From positions 3,286,001 through 3,350,000 of the forward strand of contig NZ_CP007139.1 in NCBI RefSeq assembly GCF_000724625.1: DNA of 64,000 bases, read 5' to 3'. Under the pieces are notes generated by a model, which was not told the origin of the DNA, searched no databases, and saw nothing but the letters and a program-made list of their open reading frames with translations. Origin of the DNA: Fimbriimonas ginsengisoli Gsoil 348. GTDB lineage: Bacteria; Armatimonadota; Fimbriimonadia; Fimbriimonadales; Fimbriimonadaceae. The position numbers were made by a program, and so were the translations under genes. Position 1 is the first letter of the stretch. Each line of letters starts with the position of its first letter. Positions 23,866 through 32,480 of the stretch are shown here, one piece after another.

Positions 23866-23951
23866 GGGTGGATGCCCGAGTGGCCAATGGGAACAGACTG
23901 TAAATCTGTCGGCGAGAGCCTACGTAGGTTCGAATCCTACTCCACCCACCA
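23866..23951 (+). tRNA. tRNA-Tyr (GTA anticodon)
   Basis: The 7-bp acceptor stem GGGTGGA pairs with TCCACCC. The anticodon arm is CAGACTGTAAATCTG with anticodon GTA, there is a long class II variable arm typical of bacterial tRNA-Tyr, and the T arm is GTAGGTTCGAATCCTAC. Discriminator A and an encoded CCA end follow. It is transcribed with the tRNA-Thr 3 bp downstream. Confidence 0.96.
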
Positions 23952-23954
23952 TAA

Positions 23955-24029
23955 GCCTTCGTAGCTCAGCGGCAGAGCACTTCTTTGGTAAAGAAGAGGT
24001 CACGGGTTCGATTCTCGTCGAAGGCTCCA
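23955..24029 (+). tRNA. tRNA-Thr (GGT anticodon)
   Basis: The acceptor stem GCCTTCG pairs with CGAAGGC. The D arm contains GCTCAGCGGCAGAGC, the anticodon arm is CTTCTTTGGTAAAGAAG with loop TTGGTAA and anticodon GGT, and the T arm holds GGTTCGATTC. Discriminator T and an encoded CCA follow. It lies directly after tRNA-Tyr. Confidence 0.95.
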
Positions 24030-24107: not shown

Positions 24108-25682
24108 CTACTGGAACCTCCATTGCTGGTTGGTTTTGCCGTTGGACTGATACTGATCGACGAGGGTGCCGTTGTTCCTCTTGGCGCCAACGACGTCTAG
24201 CAATAGTCCGCTATTGACGTTCTTCAGGTTGTAAACGCCGGCGCTGACCTGAACGATCTGCCATTGCTGGTTGGTGCCACCGCCGTACGGCCACTGATCG
24301 ACTTTCGCTCCATTCGTGGTCGAGGCTCCGTAGACTTCGAGGGCAAGGCCGCTGGCGACGTTGATGAGCTTAACGACGTTATTCCCGAGATTCGTCAGGA
24401 CCCATTTCTGGTTGTTCCCGCCGTTTACGGACCAGATGTCCATCTGGGTGCCGTTCGCCGTCGAGGAGCCCGGATCGTCCAGCGCAGAGCCGCTTTGGAC
24501 TCCGACGATCGTATAGGTTCCGTTGTTGATCAGGTTCCCCTGTGCCGGCGGGGGCACGGCAGACGTTCCCAGGAACGAATTGAGCATCGTTTGGTCCGTG
24601 ACCGCACCCGTGGTCCAGTTGAATACCTGGCCCGCGATATTCCAAACCGTACAGTAGAGGCCATGGCTGTTCGCCGAATCGTGGACGTACTTGTTCCAAT
24701 ACGTGCACGAGTCGTAGTTCAGCGTAATGTTGGCCCCGGTCAGGTCAGGCTCGGACGGCTTCGGGGAAGCCTCGTATTCTCCAATAAGAACAGGAACGCC
24801 CGCGTTCTTGAATTGGGTCTGCATCTTGGTGAACTCAGACTCCACGTAGGCTTCCTCTCCCCAGGTGGCGTTCCGGGAAGGCAACGTGGTGGAATGGTAG
24901 CCGTTCCCCCAGAAGTAGAACATGTTGCCCCAGGACGCATCCGACGTGAGCTGAGTGAACTGGAACGGGTCGTAGAGATGCACCTCGAGCATGATGCGAT
25001 GGGCAGAATCTGTGGGCATCGAAGCGGGAGTCAGCCAACTGCACGTGTTGTCGATGTTGGTCGTCGGCCCCTGCACGATCAGCCAGCGCGTCGCGTTGTT
25101 GCCGCCGGTGCCGCGCACCGCGTTTACGAACGTCTGGTAATACTGGAACAGAACGCTTGTCTGGGCCGCGCTGGTGGCATTCGGTTCGTTGGCGGCGGCG
25201 AAGAGCACGTGGGAGTCGTATCCGTTGAAGGCGGTCGCGACCTGCTGCCACATACGCTGCATCTTGGTGTTGAGCGTCGAGTTGAAGCTCGCGTAGCCTC
25301 CGCTGTCGAGCCATCCATTGTCCCAGTGATCGTTGATGATCACATAGAGGCCCCGGGCAGTGCACCAGTTGACGGTCTGTTGCACCTGGGACATAAAACT
25401 GGAGCTAATATTTCCGTTGGCGTCCGAAGCGTTTATCCAAGCGCATGGGATCCGAATCGTATTGAATCCGGCGTTCGCCACTGAGTTGATGAGCGCCTGG
25501 CTAGGTAGCGGACCCCAGGAACCGGGGCTGGGAATCGCTTCGAAAGTGTTGCCGAGGTTCCACCCGGTGCTTGGCGTCGGGAGCTGTCCGAACGCCCCCA
25601 TCGGCAGGGCAAGCGAGCAAGCGATAGCAAGAATAGTCTTTAGCCGGGCGTTCTTTAGGCCCTTCGCTGATCTAATCGACAT
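24108..25682 (-). CDS. Secreted GH5 family glycoside hydrolase with ricin-type lectin domain
   Basis: A 524-residue extracellular glycanase, probably an endo-beta-1,4-glucanase or mannanase. GAGGAG 9 bases upstream fixes the ATG at 25682, and the protein opens with a signal peptide (about 1-32). The GH5 domain begins TGWNLGNTFEA, has IIINDHW-like strand 4, the acid/base Glu166 in FAAANEPN and the nucleophile Glu302 in VPVLIGEYEAS. After a PPPAQGN linker, residues 387-524 form a ricin B/CBM13-like trefoil with three NQ.W-type repeats. It is divergent from an AraC regulator, with only 56 bp between the two starts, which suggests carbohydrate-responsive control. Confidence 0.9.
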   Translation of the reverse strand: MSIRSAKGLKNARLKTILAIACSLALPMGAFGQLPTPSTGWNLGNTFEAIPSPGSWGPLPSQALINSVANAGFNTIRIPCAWINASDANGNISSSFMSQVQQTVNWCTARGLYVIINDHWDNGWLDSGGYASFNSTLNTKMQRMWQQVATAFNGYDSHVLFAAANEPNATSAAQTSVLFQYYQTFVNAVRGTGGNNATRWLIVQGPTTNIDNTCSWLTPASMPTDSAHRIMLEVHLYDPFQFTQLTSDASWGNMFYFWGNGYHSTTLPSRNATWGEEAYVESEFTKMQTQFKNAGVPVLIGEYEASPKPSEPDLTGANITLNYDSCTYWNKYVHDSANSHGLYCTVWNIAGQVFNWTTGAVTDQTMLNSFLGTSAVPPPAQGNLINNGTYTIVGVQSGSALDDPGSSTANGTQMDIWSVNGGNNQKWVLTNLGNNVVKLINVASGLALEVYGASTTNGAKVDQWPYGGGTNQQWQIVQVSAGVYNLKNVNSGLLLDVVGAKRNNGTLVDQYQSNGKTNQQWRFQ

Positions 25683-25738
25683 TGATTGTTCTCCTCTTTC
25701 CGAGAACTTCAGTGTTCGGTAACTTTGAGGTCCGCGCA
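25683..25738. promoter_or_regulatory. Shared divergent regulatory region of GH5 and AraC genes
   Basis: Only 56 bases separate the GH5 start at 25682 from the AraC start at 25739, and both ribosome binding sites lie in this stretch. Any AraC binding site must lie here or inside the genes. I see no clear direct repeat pair. Confidence 0.4.
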
Positions 25739-26530
25739 ATGCAAAATATCGATGGGATAATGCACAGTCTTCCAATGCGTGGGGTATTTGCCGATACATT
25801 CGTCGGCGGCGGGAACTACAGATCTCATCATCACGCGTTCTGGGAGATCATCTATGTGCGGACCGGATCGGTGAAGATTTGCCAGGGATCGGCGGTTTTC
25901 GACATGGGACCGGGCATGATTCTGCTTCACCCGCCTTTCGTGGAGCATGCGGACAGCTCAACCTCCGAGTACTCCATTTTTTATGTGCAGATCGACGCTC
26001 CTGCCGACGCGCCCTGGCCGGGAATAGCGAATGACGACTCTTTTCAGTCGATGGGGCGGATCTGTGAGGCGACCTGCCGCGAGTGGAAGGGCAGTCACCC
26101 CCTAAGAGAAGAGATGATCGCGAACTTGACCCAGCAAACGGATCTCTTGCTGAGGCGCTTTAAGACGGCGGAGCATCGTTCCAAGGGAGAGATTTTGGTC
26201 GCCGCGGCGGAAAGGATCTTGGAGGAGCGGTACAACCTGCCGATCACCGCCGCAGAACTCGCGTCGGAACTTGGAGTTTCGAGGTCGCTGTTGTACGCGG
26301 AATTCACCGCGGTGACGGGGCAAACCCCCAAGGCGTACGTGCTTCGCCGGCGGTTGGAACATGCCACGGCGATGTTGCAACACACGAACTTCACGCTGGA
26401 AAGAATCGCGGCGGCGACAGGGTTCTATTCTTCGAGCCACCTGGCGAGGCACGTAAAGGCGTCGACGCACCAAAGCCCCGGCACCATCCGCAAACTCGCC
26501 TTAGCTCGGAATTCCCGGCCAACCGAATAG
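25739..26530 (+). CDS. AraC-family transcriptional regulator
   Basis: A 263-residue regulator. The ATG at 25739 is preceded by TGAGG; the earlier in-frame start at 25682 overlaps the divergent GH5 start and adds no conserved sequence. The N-terminal cupin sugar-sensing domain has the HHHAFWEIIYVRTGSVKI strand and GMILLHPPFVEHA. The C-terminal pair of helix-turn-helices begins ITAAELASELGVSRSLLYAEFTAVTGQTPKAYVLRRRLEHA and ends with FTLERIAAATGFYSSSHLARHVKASTHQSP. Its position divergent from the GH5 gene makes it the likely local activator; the effector is unknown. Confidence 0.9.
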   Translation: MQNIDGIMHSLPMRGVFADTFVGGGNYRSHHHAFWEIIYVRTGSVKICQGSAVFDMGPGMILLHPPFVEHADSSTSEYSIFYVQIDAPADAPWPGIANDDSFQSMGRICEATCREWKGSHPLREEMIANLTQQTDLLLRRFKTAEHRSKGEILVAAAERILEERYNLPITAAELASELGVSRSLLYAEFTAVTGQTPKAYVLRRRLEHATAMLQHTNFTLERIAAATGFYSSSHLARHVKASTHQSPGTIRKLALARNSRPTE

Positions 26531-26821: not shown

Positions 26822-28231
26822 TTGGACCTATTTGCCACGATTACCGTCCGTCAGTTCTCTGACTTACTACGACAAACGCCGATCGGTACGTTGCTTCGTA
26901 GGGACCAATGCCCGTTGCTCGTAAAGTTTCGCGAGAATAATTCGGTCGACTTCACCACCAGACTGACCAAAGACGGTAACTCCAAGTGCTTTCGGATCTC
27001 AGCGGCGAGACAGAGCAACGGCAACCAGGTTAAGTTGGTGGCGCGTGATATCCCCGAAATTCAGTTTCCCACCGTCGCAAGCTTCAATTGTATGGGCTTG
27101 TTGGCGGCCTGGAAGAATGACTTGGAACTTCCAACGATCTGGATTTCTCCCTCGGCAGAGGATTTATTGGGTGCTGGCAAGTTGGATTCCGGTCTGGTCG
27201 TCATTTTCGGCGAAACCGGGTCGGGAAAATCGGTCTTGGCAGATCGCATCTGCCAGCACGTCTTTGATAACCTTCGAGGCGGAAAGGGACACGTGCTGCG
27301 TTTCGGCGATCCGGTGGAAGGGGCGTTTAACTTCCACACTCGTTACGGAGTGCAGTTGGGACAGTTCTCCGACGTAGCGGTCGAGACGCAACGGAACCTC
27401 GGATCAGACACTCCTTCACTCGACCAATTCGGAATGGACGCGCTACGGCAGAAACCAGCGCTTGTCAGTGTCTCGGAATTGCGTAGTTCGGCGGATATGC
27501 TCGCAGCGCTAGAGTTAGCTTCCACCGGACACCTCGTAGTTGCAACGGCACACTCGGGTTCGCTCAAGGAGGGGTTCGCCAGGCTGATGAACGCCTACGG
27601 CTGTTTCGCGAACCCCGATCTCAAGGCGCCGCTTATTTCCTCGGTGCGGTGCCTGATCCATGTGGAGAGTAAGAAGGTTAACCTTCGTGAACTCGAAGGG
27701 CCCTCGCGGAAGTATAAGATCGTGCTGCCCACTGTCTGGTCAAAGACTCCAAGCGCTTTGGTGCACTTCATTGCCGACGGACCGCAGATGATCACACCAT
27801 CTAGCGGTGCGAGCTCGGATGCGGCCGACCCGCTCTACTACTACTCGGAGCCAAAGACCGTATTCAATCTGATTGCGCGAGCAGTCATCGATCTCCACAC
27901 GGATCCGTCCAAGTTGTCCGCGACGGCCACTTGCAAGTCGGACTGGCAAGGAGTCAACGCCCAGAAAGCCTCGGTTTCAGGGGAATGGGAATCGTACGTA
28001 AGACTACTCCTCGATCACATCACTGGGAAAAAAGCACCCGCTCACACCGACGACGAAATCGAGCGTCAAACGAGCCGGTTGCTCGACCACGTTTGGTCGA
28101 CCGTGATGTGTCAGGAGAGGGAGGGCCATCTGAATTGGAAAAAGGCCATGCCGCCCGACTTTGAAACGATCGAGGAGGATGTGAACACGATAGTTGAGGT
28201 GCTGAAGATCGCGATTAGGGAGATTTACTGA
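26822..28231 (+). CDS. PilT/GspE-like secretion-type ATPase of an unrecognised system
   Basis: A 469-residue P-loop ATPase with the four motifs of type II/IV secretion ATPases in correct order and spacing: Walker A GETGSGKS (130-137), an Asp-box-like LRFGDPVEG (159-167), a degenerate Walker B ALRQKPALVSVSELR (207-221, Glu219), and a His box LASTGHLVVATAHSGS (232-247). PilT itself is about 345 residues; here residues 1-100 could be a divergent N-domain, and the last 180 residues match nothing I know. It starts at a TTG preceded by AGAGG and is coupled (1-bp gap) to the KaiC-like gene. No pilus or secretion gene is nearby, so the motor has probably been recruited to another job. Confidence 0.7.
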   Translation: MDLFATITVRQFSDLLRQTPIGTLLRRDQCPLLVKFRENNSVDFTTRLTKDGNSKCFRISAARQSNGNQVKLVARDIPEIQFPTVASFNCMGLLAAWKNDLELPTIWISPSAEDLLGAGKLDSGLVVIFGETGSGKSVLADRICQHVFDNLRGGKGHVLRFGDPVEGAFNFHTRYGVQLGQFSDVAVETQRNLGSDTPSLDQFGMDALRQKPALVSVSELRSSADMLAALELASTGHLVVATAHSGSLKEGFARLMNAYGCFANPDLKAPLISSVRCLIHVESKKVNLRELEGPSRKYKIVLPTVWSKTPSALVHFIADGPQMITPSSGASSDAADPLYYYSEPKTVFNLIARAVIDLHTDPSKLSATATCKSDWQGVNAQKASVSGEWESYVRLLLDHITGKKAPAHTDDEIERQTSRLLDHVWSTVMCQEREGHLNWKKAMPPDFETIEEDVNTIVEVLKIAIREIY

Positions 28232-28232
28232 A

Positions 28233-31200
28233 ATGGGCGTCCTCAAAACTTACATTTACGAGCTTGATCGTCTCTTTCACCCGGTAGACGAATATGGAAA
28301 AGTTTGTTATGAAAAGCATGGCATTCAGTCGCCAATCGTGCTCACAGCGGATCTAGAGCTAAAGCCCAAAGAGTCAGTCCCCGAAAGAACCCTTACGATT
28401 TCCCTCGCCGGGGCGGCGGGTACTGGCAAGTCGATTTTGGCTTTGCACTTCGCTGCTGCTTTTCTCGTCGAGAACCCTGGCGCATTTGTCATGTACATCT
28501 CAACTGACTTGAGCCATGGCGTCGCAAAACGACAAATGGAGTCGTTCGGACTTGGCAAGCCCGGGGAACTTTGGGAATTCTTTGAGAGACCCAAAAACAG
28601 TATCAATCTGCGAACGGTGGTTGACCTACCTAAGGTCGAATGGGGCGCCCTCGGGGACGGAACCTTTCTTCGTAGCGTGATTAGCCCGGAGTCGATCATA
28701 CAATCCAGTTTATCAACGACAACGGTAAACAAGACTGCAGAGCCCGATATAAGTAGCGTCCACTTTGTGGACTTTCAGGAAGGAGCGAGTGGTGACGATT
28801 GGCTGTACCTTGAGGAGTTCCTATCCAAGCTCCTGCCATTAATGGAAAAGATCTTCCCACAGCGCAAGGTGCTCCTCGTGATCGATGCCATCGAAGGTTT
28901 AGATACACCCGGTTCAGGAGAGTTGCCGATTTCGAGGCACGGGCGGCGCCAGCGGCTCGCAAGGCTCATGGAAACCACCACCCGCAACGCCAACATTGTA
29001 TTCACCTTGGAGGCTACGGAACCGAACTTAGATGTCGACGAGGAATTTGTCTCGGACGTTGCGATCCATCTTAACCGAGACCAAACTGAGCACGGCTCGC
29101 GAACCACTTTAGAAGTCAAGAAGGCGCGGGGCATGTATGTCTACTCGGGAGTACATGAGTTAGTTATTAGAGGAAACCGAGGGACGACAACCGACGAGCA
29201 GGTCAACGAAGATGATCCCGACCTTCCTTGCAATAAGGTTCTCCTCCTGCCATCTCTATCGGTTTTTGAACAACGATTAGAGCTGAAATCAGCCAAGGAC
29301 TCTATCGCTTGGCCCGACAATAGCGTCGTTCTGGAACCGTGCAATCTAAAATTTGGAATTCCCGCTCTTGACGAAATGCTTAGCGAGGAAGGCGGCTTGG
29401 GTGCTGGAGGTATACACCTAATTCTTGGAGAAGAGTACACACACACGTCAAAATTGATAACTGCGTTCTTATCGCAAGGTTGTTATCGAGTTTATGAACT
29501 ATTAATGGTGGGGGCAAAGGCAAAATTACGCCCAGATATTGACCTGCTAGGTCGCGAATTCCGTAAAGCGGTGATAGCGTATCTCCCAGATGTCCGTCGC
29601 CAACTACTTTCACAGTTAATTCCAAATTCAGCATTGCCTCAGGACCTATTTGGAACAGGATTACTCTTTAGCTCTGGGAGGTCTGTTACGGCGCGGAGCT
29701 ATTTGAATGGTCTTATTGAAAATTGGAATGCAATCTTTCAGGTTCAAGAAGGAGATCGCCTTGATGTAATTAATGCAAAAGTAGATGAGTCGGGAGTAAA
29801 GGAAGTCGCAGAGGTATCTGCCATGTTTTGTACGCAATTTCTTGCCCATAAAGGAGTACGTAGCTCGTTAAAGGCACCGCGTCCTTTCATTTACCGAAGA
29901 ATGCCGTCGAGACCTCTGTCTAAGGAGATGGTGTACTTTATCATCTTAGAGAATATGAAGGCCGCAATTGTTCAGCAGATTATCGGCGATTACCAGATCG
30001 GAATGGAAAGAACGTCAGGCCCGAGCGAGCGACCAATGAACCCGAGCTCCTTTAAAAAGTTGAACGCCGATATCGCAAGGTTCTGTCAAGAGTTTCCCAG
30101 GCTTCGCTATCCCCATGCGTGGCGGGTGCGGGTGGCCTTCGAGGAAATCTCAACGCTTTTGTCGTCCATTCCTCAAGAAGATCGTGAAACGCTTACGGCG
30201 GCTATCGTCGATTTGTGTCGAGTCACTGGCGTCACCGCCTTGTTTACCGATAAGCAACAAGGCGGGCCGCTGGGCGATTCCGCTCAATCGTCAACTGGCG
30301 TTGTTCACGCTCGAACAGAAAGCGCGATCTATACTTGGCACGTTCCATATGGGAGCGGCTCAAAGGTAGCAATTGCGAAAGTTCCGCCTGTTAGCCGCGA
30401 GAAGCAGGTGGTGGTCAGGGAGCTGCGGGGCTTCAGTGAATCTCAGCGTTTAGAAATCGACCGCTGCCTAGAGTTGTATTTGGATGTCATCCCGAGTCAC
30501 GGAGCCGAACTGGAGGATCTTCGGCGAGTACCGTTAACCGTGCTGCTCGGGACGGAAGGTGAGCTCTGGGGTGATCGCTCCTTCGAAACGCAGTGCGCAG
30601 ACCTTCTTCGGTCAAGCCTCGGTGATAGCTTTCATCTTCACCGACCAGATAGCTCAGATGTCCTTCATGTTGAGTCTATGCCCGGCCAAGTGCTTGAGAG
30701 TTTCGTAAATTACAGTCTTCATGCCGCCGAACCAAGAACGGTAGTGGCGATGATCGACGAATACTGGTCCAGGAACACAAGAGAGTGGTTCCGAAAGGGA
30801 CAATCGCGGGCAAAGGATCGATTCCTAGAGTTGGACGCCGCTATGGTCGGTCGCCTACGTCACCAAGAATTCGACAACGACGTCCAACCGATCCCGGATG
30901 AAAAGGATGAGCGACATCGGCGTCTCATTCCCTTCACATGGAATTTTGGATTATCTCTTTTGCGAATGCGCCCTTGGGAATTTGCTGCCGCCAAGGTCGA
31001 GGAGGGATTGGCAAATAGTAAAGCTCCGAAGGACGTCAAAGTAAAGGAAGTTCTTGAATTAGCTCGCGGGAAGTTTGACGTACTACCAAAAGTGTGCTCT
31101 CTCAGAGGAACTGGGGAGTCGCTCGCAGAAGTTCAAGCCAATAGTGAAGTCGCTTGGCATGAATTCTTTGCGGCATGCCAGTATGTTAAGCGATTCTATT

Positions 31201-32480
31201 CCGCTCACGATGATTTACAAGTCTTCGAAATCGACGCGCCTGACTCCCAATCTCTGGTTAGTTTTGTGCTTGAAGTTTGGATGTCCACCGTGGTGTGGTT
31301 TTATACGAAAATAGAGCACCTGCCCAGTCAGAAGCGAAAATTTGGCCCGAACGACACTCTGCAACTTCCGAACGCGTTTACTAAGTGCCTTGCGTGTCTT
31401 TCGAAATGGGATGTCACGGGCGCACACCGGAAGCTCTTGGCTTCAATCACAAACCTTGAAAAAGATGATTTTGCGGAGTCTAAGTCGCTCTTTGAAGTGA
31501 TCGATGAAGGTATTCGGTACTTGAACGTTCCACCTCCGAATTCAATGCAAGACGCAGGTAACGTTATTGCCGACTCGGAAGAGGCGGATAGCGCCGTCTA
31601 CATTTTTTGCTTGTATCTTACGCTATTGACGTTAAGCCAGGTGGTCGACTTTCATCAGTGGGTGCTTGATCCCAATACGTTCATCTTTAAGCCGCGAACG
31701 TCCACTGGGAAAGCGGTGGCTGGGCGTTATTGGTATGCAACCGCTTCGTTTATGCTTCGCCGGGAGAGCAGCCCCGGTGTACCGAATTTCGACCCTAATG
31801 ACCCAATGGTGCCGATGGCGCTCCCAGGTTATTTCTCGGCGAGGGGTGATTGGCACCTGGCGGTGCTCGCAAGCAGCCGTAGCATTTACTTGGGCGAGTT
31901 GGCAATCCATGAGCTTTCTCGGTCAAAGGCGGCCACGATTCGGCTTCAAACGGGGGTGGGGTTGCCGATGTACAATTTGGTCCGTTCAGCCGACCGGAGC
32001 CCAGAGCGCCAGGTTCGCACAGCCTTGCCTTCTCCATTTGGAGGGAAGATGGCGTCGTTCGATTACGGATATGTTAAAGCCATCGCTCCGTTGCGGTATA
32101 GGGCCGACCGAGTGTCCCGTAAAATTGTTTTTCCAGGACACGAAGGTTACTTTCCCATTTACCGAAGTGAGATTAAAGGCTATATTCAAGAGACAAGTCT
32201 CTTTTCGAAGGGACTCACTCGGATACTGGTGTCATTATCTGAAGCCCACCGGGAAGGGAAGTCGGTCGACTTTTATGACGTCTTCGAAGAACTGGCAGAT
32301 CGGCTGAAGGGGAGAGAAGATCTTCGCTCAATTGTCTATGGTGTGGAAGCAACAGAGGAGGAGACTAATGGGGAATCTGTCCGGGAAGGGCTCGGGAGAT
32401 CCGATACTTGGACAATCTTCAACGATTATTTCTCACACTTCCGAGCTTTTCTGGAACCTCATAAGTCACGTGAGTCGTGA
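28233..32480 (+). CDS. Very large KaiC/RadA-like double P-loop protein of unknown function
   Basis: A 1415-residue protein I cannot assign to a named family. Domain 1 (about 35-315) has a RecA/KaiC-type Walker A GAAGTGKS (60-67), a VMYISTDLS strand like KaiC's SxE strand, Walker B VLLVIDAI (212-219, Asp218) and a terminal KKARGMYVYSGVHELVI resembling KaiC's RGxxHxxGxHxxxI. Domain 2 starts with FGIPALDEML (374-383), as KaiC repeats do, but its P-loop is LGEEYTHTSK, without the GxGKT core, so it is probably non-catalytic. The remaining 900 or so residues show no motif I recognise. Base composition is clearly AT-richer than neighbours (for example 29430-29860), suggesting transfer. Confidence 0.65.
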   Translation: MGVLKTYIYELDRLFHPVDEYGKVCYEKHGIQSPIVLTADLELKPKESVPERTLTISLAGAAGTGKSILALHFAAAFLVENPGAFVMYISTDLSHGVAKRQMESFGLGKPGELWEFFERPKNSINLRTVVDLPKVEWGALGDGTFLRSVISPESIIQSSLSTTTVNKTAEPDISSVHFVDFQEGASGDDWLYLEEFLSKLLPLMEKIFPQRKVLLVIDAIEGLDTPGSGELPISRHGRRQRLARLMETTTRNANIVFTLEATEPNLDVDEEFVSDVAIHLNRDQTEHGSRTTLEVKKARGMYVYSGVHELVIRGNRGTTTDEQVNEDDPDLPCNKVLLLPSLSVFEQRLELKSAKDSIAWPDNSVVLEPCNLKFGIPALDEMLSEEGGLGAGGIHLILGEEYTHTSKLITAFLSQGCYRVYELLMVGAKAKLRPDIDLLGREFRKAVIAYLPDVRRQLLSQLIPNSALPQDLFGTGLLFSSGRSVTARSYLNGLIENWNAIFQVQEGDRLDVINAKVDESGVKEVAEVSAMFCTQFLAHKGVRSSLKAPRPFIYRRMPSRPLSKEMVYFIILENMKAAIVQQIIGDYQIGMERTSGPSERPMNPSSFKKLNADIARFCQEFPRLRYPHAWRVRVAFEEISTLLSSIPQEDRETLTAAIVDLCRVTGVTALFTDKQQGGPLGDSAQSSTGVVHARTESAIYTWHVPYGSGSKVAIAKVPPVSREKQVVVRELRGFSESQRLEIDRCLELYLDVIPSHGAELEDLRRVPLTVLLGTEGELWGDRSFETQCADLLRSSLGDSFHLHRPDSSDVLHVESMPGQVLESFVNYSLHAAEPRTVVAMIDEYWSRNTREWFRKGQSRAKDRFLELDAAMVGRLRHQEFDNDVQPIPDEKDERHRRLIPFTWNFGLSLLRMRPWEFAAAKVEEGLANSKAPKDVKVKEVLELARGKFDVLPKVCSLRGTGESLAEVQANSEVAWHEFFAACQYVKRFYSAHDDLQVFEIDAPDSQSLVSFVLEVWMSTVVWFYTKIEHLPSQKRKFGPNDTLQLPNAFTKCLACLSKWDVTGAHRKLLASITNLEKDDFAESKSLFEVIDEGIRYLNVPPPNSMQDAGNVIADSEEADSAVYIFCLYLTLLTLSQVVDFHQWVLDPNTFIFKPRTSTGKAVAGRYWYATASFMLRRESSPGVPNFDPNDPMVPMALPGYFSARGDWHLAVLASSRSIYLGELAIHELSRSKAATIRLQTGVGLPMYNLVRSADRSPERQVRTALPSPFGGKMASFDYGYVKAIAPLRYRADRVSRKIVFPGHEGYFPIYRSEIKGYIQETSLFSKGLTRILVSLSEAHREGKSVDFYDVFEELADRLKGREDLRSIVYGVEATEEETNGESVREGLGRSDTWTIFNDYFSHFRAFLEPHKSRES

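Follow-up and report, generated by a model that had tools for sequence, protein, structure and literature searches.

The 64,000-nucleotide (nt) stretch of Fimbriimonas ginsengisoli Gsoil 348 considered here (contig NZ_CP007139.1, positions 3,286,001 to 3,350,000; "the window" below) carries two adjacent forward-strand genes separated by 1 nt. The first encodes a putative motor ATPase of the PilT superfamily. The second encodes a protein in which a KaiC domain with an intact catalytic loop is followed by a degenerate KaiC domain and a long C-terminal tail, belonging to a family of tails with, very probably, a fold like that of solute-binding proteins (SBPs). This architecture is well supported by the comparisons below. 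The features, in window positions, are:

26822 to 28231, forward strand: gene for the PilT-like motor ATPase, 469 residues, TTG start (Pfam T2SSE, E 1.5e-10), with Walker A GETGSGKS, a Walker-B glutamate, and a His box
28217 to 28222, forward strand: AGGGAG, found by eye, which may serve the KaiC-like gene as its ribosome-binding site
28233 to 32480, forward strand: gene for the KaiC, degenerate KaiC, solute-binding-like protein, one open frame, 1415 residues (Pfam KaiC, E 5.5e-15)
28233 to 29237, forward strand: domain 1, KaiC with its catalytic loop intact, residues 1-335 (best Pfam stretch 5-107; alignment)
28410 to 28433, forward strand: domain 1 Walker A GAAGTGKS, residues 60-67, read in the sequence
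28872 to 28901, forward strand: domain 1 Walker B LLVIDAIEGL, with aspartate 218 invariant in the family alignment
29238 to 30437, forward strand: domain 2, degenerate KaiC, about residues 336-735 (model matches KaiC)
29352 to 29381, forward strand: domain 2 opening FGIPALDEML, read in the sequence
29427 to 29453, forward strand: domain 2 degenerate loop GEEYTHTSK, read in the sequence
30126 to 30152, forward strand: domain 2 Walker-B remnant VRVAFEEIS, with Glu for Asp, read in the sequence
30522 to 32430, forward strand: SBP-like region, about residues 764-1400, ends approximate (from homology to relatives' tails; the family profile and a relative's model match SBPs)
30927 to 30950, forward strand: IPFTWNFG, which we take, by sequence comparison, to be the counterpart of the SBP "iPy" motif
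31821 to 31853, forward strand: LPGYFSARGDW, putative counterpart of the SBP glycine-rich C-lobe motif (matches a stretch of the SBP SmoF)

Part of this layout had been described in an original prediction made from the sequence alone. Its domain 1 retaining GAAGTGKS and a Walker B, its FGIPALDEML opening of domain 2 (slightly ahead of the start it gave, 29400), and its GEEYTHTSK where a P-loop should be are all present at the positions listed. The 900 uncharacterized residues that it placed after domain 2 shrink to a tail of about 690, domain 2 ending at about residue 725-735. The protein is a member of the KaiC family by Pfam (PF06745, 55.8 bits against a curated cut-off of 26.6), but not a double KaiC of the clock type: canonical Walker A loops in both domains were found in 0 of 13 family members.

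Domain 2 loops were placed by alignment and by eye, and 13 members could be read through the loop; one of these, G408, begins inside domain 2, so that counts for domain 1 are out of 12. The loops are GEEYTHTS (window), GEDGTYKA, GDDGTRKA, GEEGTHKL, GPRHSYKR, GSPKSYKS, GEQGTFKS, GDSLTQKR, GDSETQKT, GEDGTYKS, GTRACRKT, GPPGSRKG, and GQYNTFKS. The glycine at loop position 6, before the Walker-A lysine, is absent from domain 2 in every member (0 of 13), while the domain 1 loop is canonical in 12 of 12. This comparison across homologues, proposed with the original prediction, found the loss to be conserved, with no intact second P-loop in the 12 relatives read; judged from the alignments, it is a real loss and not decay in one strain. 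The lysine is kept in 12 of the 13 loops, the window being the sole member without it: there threonine replaces it, and the Walker-B aspartate has become glutamate. Eight of the 11 relatives read at both sites retain lysine and aspartate at the aligned positions, and domain 2 of these eight might still bind nucleotide. A shared early loss of the loop, with the window then losing more, would be the simplest reading. The predicted pairing of one active with one dead copy is therefore conserved across homologues as an intact/degenerate pair, but "dead" describes the window best.

An AlphaFold2 model of window residues 336-1415 was poor overall, with a mean predicted local distance difference test score (pLDDT) of 47.8 and a predicted template modeling score (pTM) of 0.42. 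All 50 Foldseek rows shown for its first 400 residues are KaiC, and in VIA the model of domain 2 matches KaiC with Z 19.8 (2.7 Å over 199 residues), the best 50 rows all being KaiC or KaiC-like. Domain 2 is thus still modeled with a RecA/KaiC-like fold, and the other fold that would have counted against the original prediction was not seen. Since the rows listed for the window model are KaiC-like only, VIA barely tests the window tail. Pfam detected KaiC in the region comprising domain 2 and the tail in 5 of 9 members, the window not among them.

The degenerate second loop also has a counterpart outside the family. A tree was built in which 10 members of the family stand with 52 two-domain KaiC-like frames from outside it; it excludes L037, L038, L052, L065, L094, and frames under 450 residues, and does not contain L034 or L131. 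It unites the family with 11 short Planctomycetota KaiCs in one group (Shimodaira-Hasegawa-like approximate likelihood ratio test support, SH-aLRT, 100). Among the 52 non-family frames, both loops are canonical in 37, only the first in 11, and only the second in 4; the 11 first-only frames are exactly the short Planctomycetota group, and the other 41 are the 37 and the 4. These short proteins (11 loci in L039-L051 and L054, frames of 526-595 residues) resemble the family in having a canonical loop in domain 1 only, but have no tail; around the four of the 11 that were inspected, no PilT-like or tail gene was found, although in one the frame picking missed the KaiC itself. Branching order inside the family is unsure, because the branch joining its 10 members is weak (53) and several of their rows are long.

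Some individual KaiCs vary in other ways. Domain 2 of L040, in the short group, reads EPGTRATF. Two ordinary double KaiCs, L053 and L075, have an altered first-loop glycine (GTAGSAKT and GSAGSCKS) and keep a canonical loop in the second domain, reversing the arrangement seen in the family. L052 (G473), a Planctomycetota KaiC-like frame of 852 residues in its locus, has a long N-terminal extension and the second loop GPVGAGKW.

The resemblance of the tail to SBPs was noted ahead of testing. When a profile of 12 family tails was searched against all PDB chains with a limit of E 10, SmoF, an SBP, was the sole match (E 0.0015), through two stretches in collinear order, each weak individually; the compact tail of relative G193 found the same single match (E 0.35). 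For direct comparison an SBP profile was made from 7 of 16 fetched SBP frames (single-domain, 437-490 residues), leaving out the longer frames, a short one, and another whose strand was doubtful. Aligned to it with hhalign, the 12 tails scored 35.8 (E 0.0017, probability 15%); among the controls, 40 column shuffles reached 18.75 at the highest, the reversed control 15.75, and a PilT-like profile 14.9. With 13 tails the score rose to 49.2 (E 3.2e-5, probability 73%; at most 16.3 in 60 shuffles), and the G193 tail by itself gave E 6.1e-5 over 278 columns.

Structure prediction points the same way. For the tail of relative L022, modeled from an alignment with 9 of the 12 tails (mean pLDDT 58.5, pTM 0.61), the top 19 Foldseek rows are SBPs, the best at E 2.6e-3 and none at or below 0.001. 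In VIA the best 50 rows for this model are all SBPs (best Z 13.8, 4.8 Å, 248 residues); these matches span model residues 175-604, the first 174 being barely tested. An SBP fold is thus indicated for this relative's tail, the model of the window's own being too poor to judge. Pfam had no SBP family match in the scan of domain 2 plus tail in 9 members, nor in four tails, and the window tail alone gave nothing convincing with Pfam, PHROGs, or a single-sequence PDB search (best E 0.099, a retinol dehydratase). The signal comes from the family profile and from divergent relatives. The window tail fits the tail profile with E 2.5e-147, the window being itself included in the profile, and would be SBP-like by its homology to the family tails. 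The earlier remark that the tail has no nameable motif needs correcting: at the family level the tail, from sequence and model together, very probably has an SBP-like fold. The suggestion that it might hold an effector was dropped: no convincing match was found for the window tail, and the family evidence leads to an SBP-like, sensor-type fold. A motor-like output is more likely to come from the upstream PilT-like ATPase, which the original prediction had not connected with this gene.

All 10 full cassettes have such a PilT-like gene directly upstream of the KaiC-like gene, the spacing between the two being -4 to 20 nt when starts are chosen mechanically. All 10 PilT-like proteins have the Walker-A lysine, Walker-B glutamate, and His-box histidine. 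AIRNLIRE, a motif of PilT, is present in four of four PilTs aligned but absent from the alignment of all 10 partners. The best PDB matches of the window protein are PilU and PilT, while against NCBIfam PilT (TIGR01420) it scores 71.5 bits, below the cut-off of 319.1. By motif and profile it is a divergent member of the PilT superfamily that fails the tests for PilT itself. In three of the 10 partners (G291, G292, and G293) the Walker-A glycine is replaced by Ala or Ser; the loops concerned (L023:6496-7989, L024:6540-7997, and L034:1632-3128) read GSTKSAKS, GATDSSKS, and GPTNSAKS, altered at the same loop position as domain 2. There is also a second form of the cassette (L131:6948-11447 and L021:599-4807), in which two small proteins precede a compact KaiC-KaiC-SBP-like protein.

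Protein and profile searches of Armatimonadota, Planctomycetota, and Acidobacteriota genomes scored two candidates per genome, and the tail-profile search up to four, so that genome counts are lower bounds. Relatives were found in at least 7 of 291 Armatimonadota genomes by protein search, the window's own included, and in at least 9 of 291 by tail profile; the protein search found none in the 19 remaining genomes of its genus. Scanning genome contigs yielded eight loci, four on contigs already found and four new in Planctomycetota and Acidobacteriota. Sampled profile searches matched at least 27 of 392 and at least 35 of 396 genomes of these two phyla, nearly all with ordinary short KaiCs; the first sample held one full-length and one partial (G408) family member, and the second one full-length member. 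The family is thus scattered over three bacterial phyla. No relative was found in viral contigs, nor in plasmid or phage records searched with the L022 protein.

Third-position guanine-plus-cytosine (GC) content is 0.53 in the KaiC-like gene and 0.66 in the PilT-like gene, against 0.68-0.80 in 12 other window genes, and 7 of 8 relatives have a lower GC in the cassette than in the remainder of its stretch, the difference often being slight. Together with the patchy spread, this low GC would suggest horizontal transfer of the cassette, though the searches gave no carrier. Its neighbors, read by eye, differ between genomes and are mostly housekeeping genes. In the window, a tRNA-Tyr and tRNA-Thr pair (23866-24029) lies about 2.8 kb upstream; just upstream are an apparent secreted cellulase with a ricin-like repeat domain (24108-25799, by eye) and, divergent from it, an AraC-type regulator (25682-26530; Pfam HTH_18, E 2.9e-19). 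A promoter and terminator scan found sites no more numerous than in shuffled sequence.

These genes could encode a ligand-sensing KaiC regulator and a PilT-type motor working like the archaeal pair ArlH and ArlI, a reading that we favor while putting it somewhat short of probable. The most likely order of events would run from ligand to tail closure, inert tier, active ring, and motor. The tail would bind a small ligand inside the cell and close on it, as SBPs do; the inert domain 2 would serve as a scaffold tier relaying this closure to the active domain 1; and the ATP state or ring assembly of domain 1 might then, through contact between the two proteins, switch the PilT-like motor on or off, control running from KaiC to motor by analogy with ArlH and ArlI. 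The motor might act on the platform of a type IV pilus or of type II secretion, or on another cargo.

Several observations weigh against this proposal. The match of the tails to SBPs drops to E 0.061 when those of G193 and G408 are removed; the tails of G193 and G194 together reach only E 0.0049, and the window tail alone, at E 0.57, gives no signal. The tail model is that of a relative, with a low mean pLDDT and a poor N-terminal part. A hydrophobic stretch in the window tail (residues 1120-1138, mean hydropathy 1.79) is a possible membrane segment. In G193 and G194 the KaiC-like gene lacks a PilT-like neighbor and has two small proteins, membrane-anchored by eye, encoded upstream instead. 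In the window, the cassette has no gene for a pilus or for secretion next to it.

This last point bears equally on another reading, in which the cassette would assist type IV pili or type II secretion that the host already has. Its PilT-like protein would plug into a PilC/GspF platform, timed by the KaiC-like protein, with the SBP-like tail a mere docking surface. Platform proteins (T2SSF) occur in 10 of 10 hosts and PilT above cut-off in 9 of 10, and F. ginsengisoli is described as having fimbriae and many pilus genes (PMC4072686). Co-occurrence is uninformative, however, because 289 of 291 genomes of the phylum carry PilT above cut-off, and a pilus link on that ground was dropped; with AIRNLIRE absent from all 10 partners as well, we think the accessory role unlikely. 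A role in anti-phage defense or another conflict, the tail sensing an invader-derived molecule and the two ATPases executing or relaying the response, seems improbable too, despite the patchy spread (7 or 9 of 291 genomes, 0 of 19 others in the genus), the low third-position GC of the KaiC-like gene, and a TIR gene near the G044 cassette (L019:6486-6902; Pfam TIR_2, E 2.9e-12; a ThsB-like PADLOC model, E 1.3e-7). PADLOC (2023 library) has only weak P-loop matches for the cassette proteins tested (best mad8, E 4.9e-4), no nuclease or other killing domain was recognized in them, their neighbors by eye are mostly housekeeping genes, and phage records, plasmid records, and viral contigs yielded no relative. 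In the passages covered, a paper on conflict systems (PMC7159879) has no KaiC, PilT, or RecA, and one mention of an extracellular periplasmic-binding domain.

Two further alternatives concern domain 2. It might not be inert: in most relatives its unusual loop could still form a functional site for nucleotide, only the window copy having decayed further; this is rather doubtful, though less easily set aside. Lysine is followed by Ser or Thr in five of the 13 loops (G027, G291, G294, G293, and G193) plus G408, the Walker-B aspartate is in place in most relatives, and Ala or Cys takes the glycine position in domain 1 of some ordinary KaiCs (GTAGSAKT, GSAGSCKS), as Ala or Ser does in three of the 10 PilT-like partners. 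In domain 2, however, all 13 members have a bulky substitute (Tyr, Phe, His, Arg, or Gln), and GK is missing altogether from those short sister KaiCs that were read. Simple decay of one strain's gene would explain why the window is the most degraded member, with lysine and Walker-B aspartate both gone, but it is very improbable and was rejected because the glycine loss is common to homologues in three phyla (13 of 13 members, and the 11 short relatives as well); the long frame is also intact and the tail conserved.

Taking the ArlH-like reading further, and more tentatively still, the cassette may represent an undescribed bacterial sensory machine driven by ATP, in which an SBP domain from nutrient uptake, now intracellular and placed behind an active and an inert KaiC ring, gates a dedicated PilT-type motor. 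Its two genes would pass together from one phylum to another, and in a second form, that of G193 and G194, the motor would be replaced by two small proteins that look membrane-anchored. No matching architecture was found in full-text searches of a library with few subscription papers. If this is correct, the ligand-sensor-like domain carried by the KaiC partner itself would open the input to testing in vitro, and the family would provide both a conserved pseudo-ATPase tier and an intracellular use of the SBP fold.

Each part of the cassette has known counterparts. Circadian KaiC likewise has tandem KaiC domains, and domain 2 of the window aligns best with its second half; it has two canonical loops, where the family has a canonical loop in domain 1 only, and the family adds a long tail. 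With the retraction ATPases PilT and PilU the motor shares the Walker A, Walker-B glutamate, and His box, at just 17-24% identity to host-type PilT, without AIRNLIRE and below the NCBIfam cut-off. The sugar-type SBPs of ATP-binding cassette (ABC) transporters (SmoF, CbpB, and others) resemble the family tail in collinear motifs and predicted fold. A secreted SBP would have an N-terminal signal or lipoprotein peptide and an ABC transporter; the window domain instead begins at about residue 764 behind two KaiC domains, and no ABC transporter was seen by eye beside the cassette in the window. The family tail, which forms the C-terminal domain in an ATPase and is not a secreted protein, also has inserts of its own and is below Pfam detection.

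The closest functional parallel is ArlH-ArlI (FlaH-FlaI) of the archaellum. KaiC-like ArlH, when ATP-bound, is reported to stimulate ArlI, an ATPase of the type IV pilus superfamily, and to form hexamers, autophosphorylate, and then be released (PMC12024892, PMC8978795), although its mode of switching is described as still under debate (PMC12024892). Archaeal type IV pilus loci are reported to include KaiC-family genes as well (PMC4858521). Both window cassette proteins weakly touch the ArlH model in NCBIfam, but the score of 19.2 bits against NF052589, with a cut-off of 215, indicates that the cassette is not an archaellum system, and no archaellum genes were seen beside it. The family differs further in its two KaiC domains (one degenerate), its SBP-like tail, its bacterial hosts, and a motor closer to PilT, TraJ, and DotB than to FlaI. 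What it shares with ArlH-ArlI is the pairing itself, a KaiC-like ATP-binding protein encoded together with a motor ATPase of the type IV pilus superfamily.

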